Below, piece after piece: positions 47,775-48,608 of a stretch of 64,000 bases of DNA (within the stretch, counting starts at the first letter, position 1; each line of letters starts with the position of its first letter). The position numbers and the translations under genes were made by a program. The notes beneath the pieces are model-generated. The model worked only from the letters and a program-made list of their open reading frames with translations. It searched no databases and was not told where the DNA came from. Source of the stretch: an archaeon (lineage in GTDB: Archaea; Nanobdellota; Nanobdellia; Woesearchaeales; GW2011-AR9); contig JABHQR010000006.1 of NCBI GenBank assembly GCA_018696395.1, positions 1 to 64,000 on the forward strand, in the 5' to 3' direction.

Positions 47775-48050
47775 TTCATTAAAGAAACAATTGGCCTTTT
47801 TAAACTTTTTTATATTAACTTGATTAGTTTAAGTGATATATTAATTTATAATTGTTGACATAGTATGTTTTCATACACCAATGATTCATTGTTAAATGTA
47901 TTTATTAATTTTCATTTAATATTAATTAGATTATTAATATAATAATAGGTGCATAATGACAATATTACGTTTAACTAATTAAAAAGGTAATAAAATAAAA
48001 AATTGTAAGTAATCAGAACACATATTTTATTATTTAGTAAGTTAAAACTA

Positions 48051-48082
48051 TACACCTACCCCCTTATTTCTTATGGAAGTTG
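48051..48082 (-). promoter_or_regulatory. Origin recognition box, left (inverted)
   Basis: Read on the minus strand, this element has TTCCA, GAAAT and the G-string GGGGGTAGG in order. It matches the right-hand element at 25 of 32 positions, counted by eye. The G-rich end points away from the AT-rich region, as in other archaeal origins. Confidence 0.8.
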
Positions 48083-48337
48083 AAAAATTAAAGAAAAGTG
48101 AAGGTATTGTTTAAATTAATTAATGAGATAGTTGTTAGTTATGAATTAATATAATAATTAATATTAATAATAAAATATATGATGGTGATTGAAGGTAAAA
48201 AAATATAATGAAAATTATTTAATATTAAAAATGTTTGAATCATATTGATTTCATTCAACATTAAAAAAATCTAACACTGTTTTAATTAAATAATTCTGAT
48301 TTTTGATTTTTATAGAGATATAATATAATAATTTATT

Positions 48338-48398
48338 TATATATATATATATATATATATATTTACAATATAGTAAATAATAATAATAATAATAATAA
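48338..48398. repeat. AT and TAA simple repeats in the origin
   Basis: About twelve AT units (48338-48362) are followed by seven perfect TAA units (48378-48398). They lie in the AT-rich centre between the two origin boxes and would melt readily, in keeping with a duplex unwinding element. Confidence 0.9.
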
Positions 48399-48526
48399 CA
48401 TTGAAAGTTATAAATTTAAAAAAAGTTAGAAACTACAAAATGTTAAAAAAGTACATTTAACAACAAAAAGCTATTTAATTATATATCCTAATATATCTGT
48501 TACCATATCCTTTAATGTAAAAAACA

Positions 48527-48540
48527 ATATTTAAATATAA
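48527..48540 (+). promoter_or_regulatory. TATA box of orc1/cdc6
   Basis: ATATTTAAATATAA lies about 75 nt before the start codon and about 40 nt before the right-hand origin box. The transcript would begin near 48560, so the origin box would lie in the 5' leader. Confidence 0.45.
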
Positions 48541-48576
48541 CTTAATCAAACAATATCATTATTTTTTTATTATTAA

Positions 48577-48608
48577 CAATTTCCAAAGGAAATCAAGGGG
48601 TAGGGGTG
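48577..48608 (+). promoter_or_regulatory. Origin recognition box, right, overlapping the orc1/cdc6 ribosome binding site
   Basis: The element has the dyad TTTCCAAAGGAAAT followed by CAAGGGGTAGGGG. It resembles the Orc1/Cdc6-binding ORB of Pyrococcus and Sulfolobus (TTCCA-GGAAA-G-string). The last G-run is also the ribosome binding site GGGGTGA for ATG 48615, so the initiator may control its own expression. Confidence 0.85.

Follow-up and report, generated by a model that had tools for sequence, protein, structure and literature searches.

Our results indicate that the intergenic gap at positions 47775-48608, between spoIIM (minus strand, ending at 47774) and orc1 in the 64,000-nucleotide stretch of DNA analysed here (hereafter, the window), is very probably where a Woesearchaeota archaeon begins to replicate its chromosome, an origin of the ordinary archaeal Orc1/ORB type, a reading to which we assign a probability of about 0.9. 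Woesearchaeota, to which named relatives assign the genome, are uncultured DPANN archaea. The initial annotation had proposed an Orc1/ORB origin at this place, and the proposal is borne out at the sequence level by the ORB motif, the opposed polarity of two elements, the A+T-rich interior between them, the adjoining orc1, order-wide conservation, and uniqueness within the genome. Judged by its sequence features, the gap represents a single origin of the canonical orc1-linked type in a DPANN lineage, and we found no description of a Woesearchaeota origin in the open-access literature (most subscription journals lay outside this search). The features on which the argument draws are the following, in window coordinates.

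43152..43171, plus strand: degenerate ORB-like element, weak (3 mismatches, below 6 bits), 110 bp upstream of tbp
43281..43844, plus strand: tbp (TATA-binding protein), opening the tbp-mcm-rpa run; supported by synteny
43941..45962, plus strand: mcm replicative helicase
46038..46877, plus strand: RPA-like OB-fold protein, the OB-fold slightly below the curated cut-off
46929..47774, minus strand: SpoIIM-family membrane protein gene, left border of the origin; syntenic in relatives
48051..48082, minus strand: left (distal) ORB, core 48058-48078; 36.3 bits under a matrix from which the window was excluded; relatives have an orthologous element
48083..48576, no strand assigned: A+T-rich interior, presumed duplex unwinding element; 86.5% A+T, with (AT)n at 48339-48362 and (TAA)n near 48379-48398
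48530..48539, plus strand: candidate orc1 TATA box (TTTAAATATA), proposed from its sequence only
48577..48608, plus strand: right (proximal) ORB, core 48581-48601; 39.3 bits; equivalent in 30 of 30 family loci; overlaps the orc1 leader
48603..48609, plus strand: second G-run of the right ORB (GGGGTGA), likely orc1 Shine-Dalgarno sequence; pairing with an assumed archaeal 16S tail is computed at -10.8 kcal/mol
48615..49817, plus strand: orc1/cdc6 initiator gene, 400 aa, with AAA+, Cdc6 lid and Cdc6_C winged helix
49886..51607, plus strand: DNA polymerase D small subunit (DP1); supported by synteny
51779..55429, plus strand: DNA polymerase D large subunit (DP2)

Both elements are full Origin Recognition Boxes (TTCCANNNGAAAYNRRGGGGT), the right one reading CAATTTCCAAAGGAAATCAAGGGGTAGGGGTG at 48577-48608 on the plus strand and the left one CAACTTCCATAAGAAATAAGGGGGTAGGTGTA at 48051-48082 on the minus strand. 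Each contains TTCCANNNGAAAT followed by a G-run and a T (i.e., the TTCCA-GAAA dyad and then the G-run), fits the published archaeal ORB consensus CTTCCAGTGGAAACGAAAGGGGT (PMC4153887, Table 2), and agrees with the DoriC common motif, TCCA[CG]T[TG]GAAA[TC][GA]AAGGGGT (PMC4164010), in the TCCA-GAAA and GGGGT parts. The G-run of the left ORB points left, away from the A+T-rich interior, and that of the right ORB points right; the layout is one of at least two ORBs, opposite in polarity, flanking an A+T-rich element. A recount on the window sequence also agrees with what had been annotated: the two inverted elements are identical at 25 of 32 positions (24 when the register is shifted by two bases), they are separated by 494 bp (about 495 had been given) of DNA with both AT and TAA tracts and an A+T content well above the 72% of the window, and orc1/cdc6 begins at the right element, with an ATG at 48615 and a possible GTG start at 48606. 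We dropped the percent identity of the pair as evidence because shuffles of the A+T-rich gap yield equal values, with the best inverted 32-mer match reaching at least 25 in 38 of 60 shuffles (G/C-rich among those, 0 of 60). Hence, the significance of the pair rests on the ORB motif, genome uniqueness, and conservation. When the 64-kb window was scanned with a weight matrix for which 52 ORBs from related genomes, but not those of the window, had been used, the two ORBs obtained the scores given above and no third site reached 6 bits, the best score in 20 shuffled windows being 18.1 bits. Further, the exact pattern YTCCANNNGAAAYNRRGGGGK occurs only at the two ORB places in the whole 1.38-Mb genome, and its reversed control has zero occurrences there.

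An equivalent layout is found in related genomes. The proximal plus-strand ORB lies upstream of orc1 in all 30 family loci, and the distal minus-strand ORB is present in nearly all of those with enough upstream sequence (the distal match of L011 being weak), for a total of 64 ORB matches observed in the family vs. 0.45 expected in shuffles. Paired ORBs stand 208 to 1200 bp apart, and in 23 of 23 relatives the DNA between them is richer in A+T than the locus as a whole (mean 77% vs. 66%). Across 49 family genomes the exact ORB pattern occurs 67 times, whereas its reversed control has 0 occurrences; all but 3 of these 67 places are near orc1 or tbp. In G057 and G145, two relatives each represented by a single contig, orc1 is located at 764,197 and 468,380, respectively. 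The gene order thiI, tbp, mcm, rpa, spoIIM, ORB-ORB, orc1, DP1 is shared by most family genomes in which enough sequence was read, and a matching pair with the same outward G-run polarity was seen in most of 79 loci named Woesearchaeota, Pacearchaeota or Nanoarchaeota.

Several loci in this comparison have peculiarities of their own. The origins of L009, L012, L017, L024, L027, L035 and G021 carry weaker inner ORBs, in the orientation of the outer ones and 110-137 bp inward, with a spacing that seems regular. Six Pacearchaeota-like loci (L119, L123, L124, L126, L127, L134) carry a full ORB roughly 2 kb ahead of orc1, in most cases within an open reading frame, and (GACA)n repeats come after it. 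Finally, contig MGRI01000092.1 (L069), titled Deltaproteobacteria bacterium, encodes a Woesearchaeota-type orc1 (70% identity) next to an ORB pair and is probably mis-binned.

In a relative represented by a 704-kb contig (G046), the cumulative GC skew forms a single broad V with its minimum at 460,718, rising afterwards, and the ORB pair lies at 468,084-468,628, that is, 7-8 kb from the minimum. This skew structure exceeds all 5000 block permutations, but chance alone brings the minimum to within 10 kb of the ORBs in 3.8% of block-permutation trials; a two-line fit to the same curve breaks at 454,000. Over the 64 kb of the window (the genome consists of 24 contigs), the cumulative skew is lowest at 39,405, roughly 9 kb to the left of the ORBs. 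In both G046 and the window the offset is toward the tbp-mcm side, where the genes run to the origin, and gene direction may be its cause. On a contig of a second relative (G021:C2, 1.47 Mb, with 73 kb masked, much of it beside orc1), the skew is monotone and net negative over nearly the whole length, which is unusual for a chromosome, and we draw nothing from this profile about the origin.

The adjoining gene encodes an initiator-type Orc1/Cdc6. Among proteins of solved structure, the closest to it in sequence are Orc1-1 of Sulfolobus (2qby_A, E 4e-100) and Orc1 of Aeropyrum (2v1u_A, E 1e-97), both of which have been determined together with origin DNA (PMC9738581, PMC6742236), and alignment with these proteins shows that the recognition helix QRRVSDI and the wing GRYG are retained. 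Four winged-helix arginines touch the ORB in Orc1-1-type initiators (PMC9738581); the QRR and GRYG arginines are present in the window Orc1, with the contact residues matched by sequence alignment rather than by structure numbering. At one wing position, both solved proteins have R where the window Orc1 and the five aligned orthologs have K (SKGR), a conservative change.

The genome also encodes a second Orc1/Cdc6 paralog (G000:C16:21617-22663, 27% identity), with a counterpart in nearly all family genomes. Together with the several origins common in archaea (PMC6742236), this paralog makes it conceivable that the origin described here is one of several and that a second site fires, e.g., at the paralog on contig C16, but we consider this unlikely. 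The wing arginine that binds DNA is missing from the paralog, the winged helix of which falls below the Pfam cut-off; the exact-pattern scan of its own genome found no ORB near it on C16, or anywhere else outside the pair, which bears on origins of the ORB type; and the skew of G046 is a single V. The C16 paralog is probably not an ORB-dependent initiator, as far as its residues and surroundings tell, and having neither the wing arginine nor ORBs it is a candidate non-initiator regulator. Haloferax and Thermococcus are viable without their ORB origins (PMC7617429), and an intact origin need not, therefore, be the only start site.

The ORBs may also be tied to gene expression. In about two thirds of the 30 family genomes only 24-34 bases separate the ORB from the orc1 ATG, which puts its G-run at the Shine-Dalgarno position, with a computed pairing energy between about -6 and -13 kcal/mol for the assumed archaeal 16S tail (one, L032, is weaker); several genomes in which the ORB is farther upstream have a separate orc1 ribosome-binding site (L008, L010, L016, L023). 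Since the right ORB overlaps both the orc1 leader and its ribosome-binding site, bound Orc1 probably limits its own synthesis. Among other Woesearchaeales, nine loci (L087, L093, L096, L101, L102, L103, L108, L111, L131) carry a minus-strand mini-ORB some 30-80 bp ahead of orc1 that directly abuts a TATA-like sequence in several cases, an arrangement that suggests Orc1 autoregulation there as well.

A further set of ORBs is located upstream of tbp. An exact ORB occupies this position in 10 of 49 family genomes (L230-L237, L264, L267), in 2 of the 10 in the opposite orientation. Across 116 genomes of the order there are at least 150 exact matches, at least 62 of them upstream of orc1 and at least 38 upstream of tbp; the latter lie 80-290 bp upstream in at least 37 of the 116 genomes, and among the matches listed 38 of 38 have the orientation of tbp. 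We rejected an ORB directly before the TATA box as a rule at tbp, given that the spacing is loose and only 4 of 8 same-orientation cases fall within 25 nt (background 6%). In the window itself, the element at 43152-43171 was ruled out as a third ORB by its three mismatches and its score; we kept it as what may remain of the ORB that relatives have at the tbp promoter because its position matches that of their full tbp-upstream ORBs. In two genomes, G030 (L238) and G036 (L248), about 1.6 kb of additional sequence, which might be an intein or an insertion, interrupts mcm near residues 356-407.

The tbp-upstream ORBs, in about a third of the order, hint that Orc1 also regulates transcription. The Orc1 of Woesearchaeales might, then, be a promoter-bound regulator in addition to an initiator, acting from an ORB upstream of the tbp core promoter and on its own gene through the ORB/ribosome-binding site, and in this way wiring the start of replication to the supply of helicase, single-strand-binding protein and TBP; we put this forward tentatively, as somewhat more doubtful than probable. 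Regulation of tbp-mcm-rpa by Orc1 is a live hypothesis for the order and a weak one for the window genome, where the degenerate tbp site may mean that the wiring has weakened.

Carried to its end, this line of thought would have the ORBs serve mainly as Orc1 operators (at orc1, and at tbp-mcm-rpa in relatives), with replication starting elsewhere or by recombination. The overlap of the right ORB with the orc1 leader and ribosome-binding site, the tbp-upstream ORBs of the order and the family, the mini-ORB abutting the orc1 TATA box in other Woesearchaeales, and the precedent of Sulfolobus Orc1-2, a known transcription regulator (PMC9738581), are all consistent with such a role. However, it leaves unexplained the inverted distal ORB 208-1200 bp away, the A+T-rich interior and the nearby skew minimum of G046, and an operator role is compatible with an origin at one and the same place; as a replacement for the origin reading we regard it as very unlikely. 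That the right element is merely the orc1 ribosome-binding site and leader, and the left one a chance match in A+T-rich DNA, would agree with the Shine-Dalgarno position that the G-run takes in about two thirds of the family and with the frequency of inverted matches in gap shuffles, but as an account of the pair as a whole it is refuted by conservation and genome-wide specificity: the TTCCANNNGAAAY part is nearly invariant and superfluous for ribosome binding, the left element is kept in motif and polarity among relatives, the pattern is almost missing elsewhere in the genomes, and a separate orc1 ribosome-binding site is often present where the ORB is farther upstream.

Under the favored reading, a replication origin, Orc1 from the adjoining gene would bind each ORB as an oriented monomer, with the winged helix on the TTCCA-GAAA dyad and the initiator-specific motif near the G-run, as in Sulfolobus and Aeropyrum. 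Because the ORBs are of opposite polarity, the two Orc1 molecules would be placed symmetrically, facing each other across the A+T-rich interior. Directional binding of Orc1 between opposed ORBs and the loading of two MCM rings have been described (PMC6742236). By analogy with the same two systems, the interior (48083..48576), for which a role in unwinding is proposed from its composition, would melt and take two MCM helicases, leading to bidirectional replication, and the bound Orc1 would at the same time sit on the orc1 leader.

The arrangement resembles several known systems without being identical to any. It is like that of oriC1 and Orc1-1 in Sulfolobus solfataricus, with opposed ORBs around an A+T-rich unwinding element beside orc1 and with the closest initiator, 2qby_A (PMC6742236), although Sulfolobus possesses three origins, with oriC1 bearing several ORBs, as opposed to one ORB origin with two full ORBs, the right one overlapping the orc1 leader, in the window. 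As in Pyrococcus and the Thermococcales, there is one origin with ORBs and an adjoining orc1/cdc6 (PMC11005403), but the latter have radA close by whereas the window has spoIIM on the left, DP1-DP2 on the right, and tbp-mcm-rpa 2-5 kb away. The inverted ORBs with a terminal G-run recall haloarchaeal oriC1 (PMC3528665); haloarchaea, however, possess many orc genes and several origins vs. one ORB origin in the window genome. Finally, the Methanomassiliicoccales have paired ORBs at one of two orc1/cdc6 genes (orc1/cdc6.1), the other being fast-evolving and accessory (PMC4153887), but their ORBs flank or lie downstream of orc1 while both window ORBs are upstream.

In conclusion, our analysis indicates that the standard archaeal initiator system reaches into Woesearchaeales. 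The origin gives a fixed coordinate for genome orientation, and with a conserved, single, motif-defined origin, metagenome read depth would become a means of estimating growth rates in these lineages. The tbp-upstream ORBs, in turn, make the question of Orc1 as a regulator testable.
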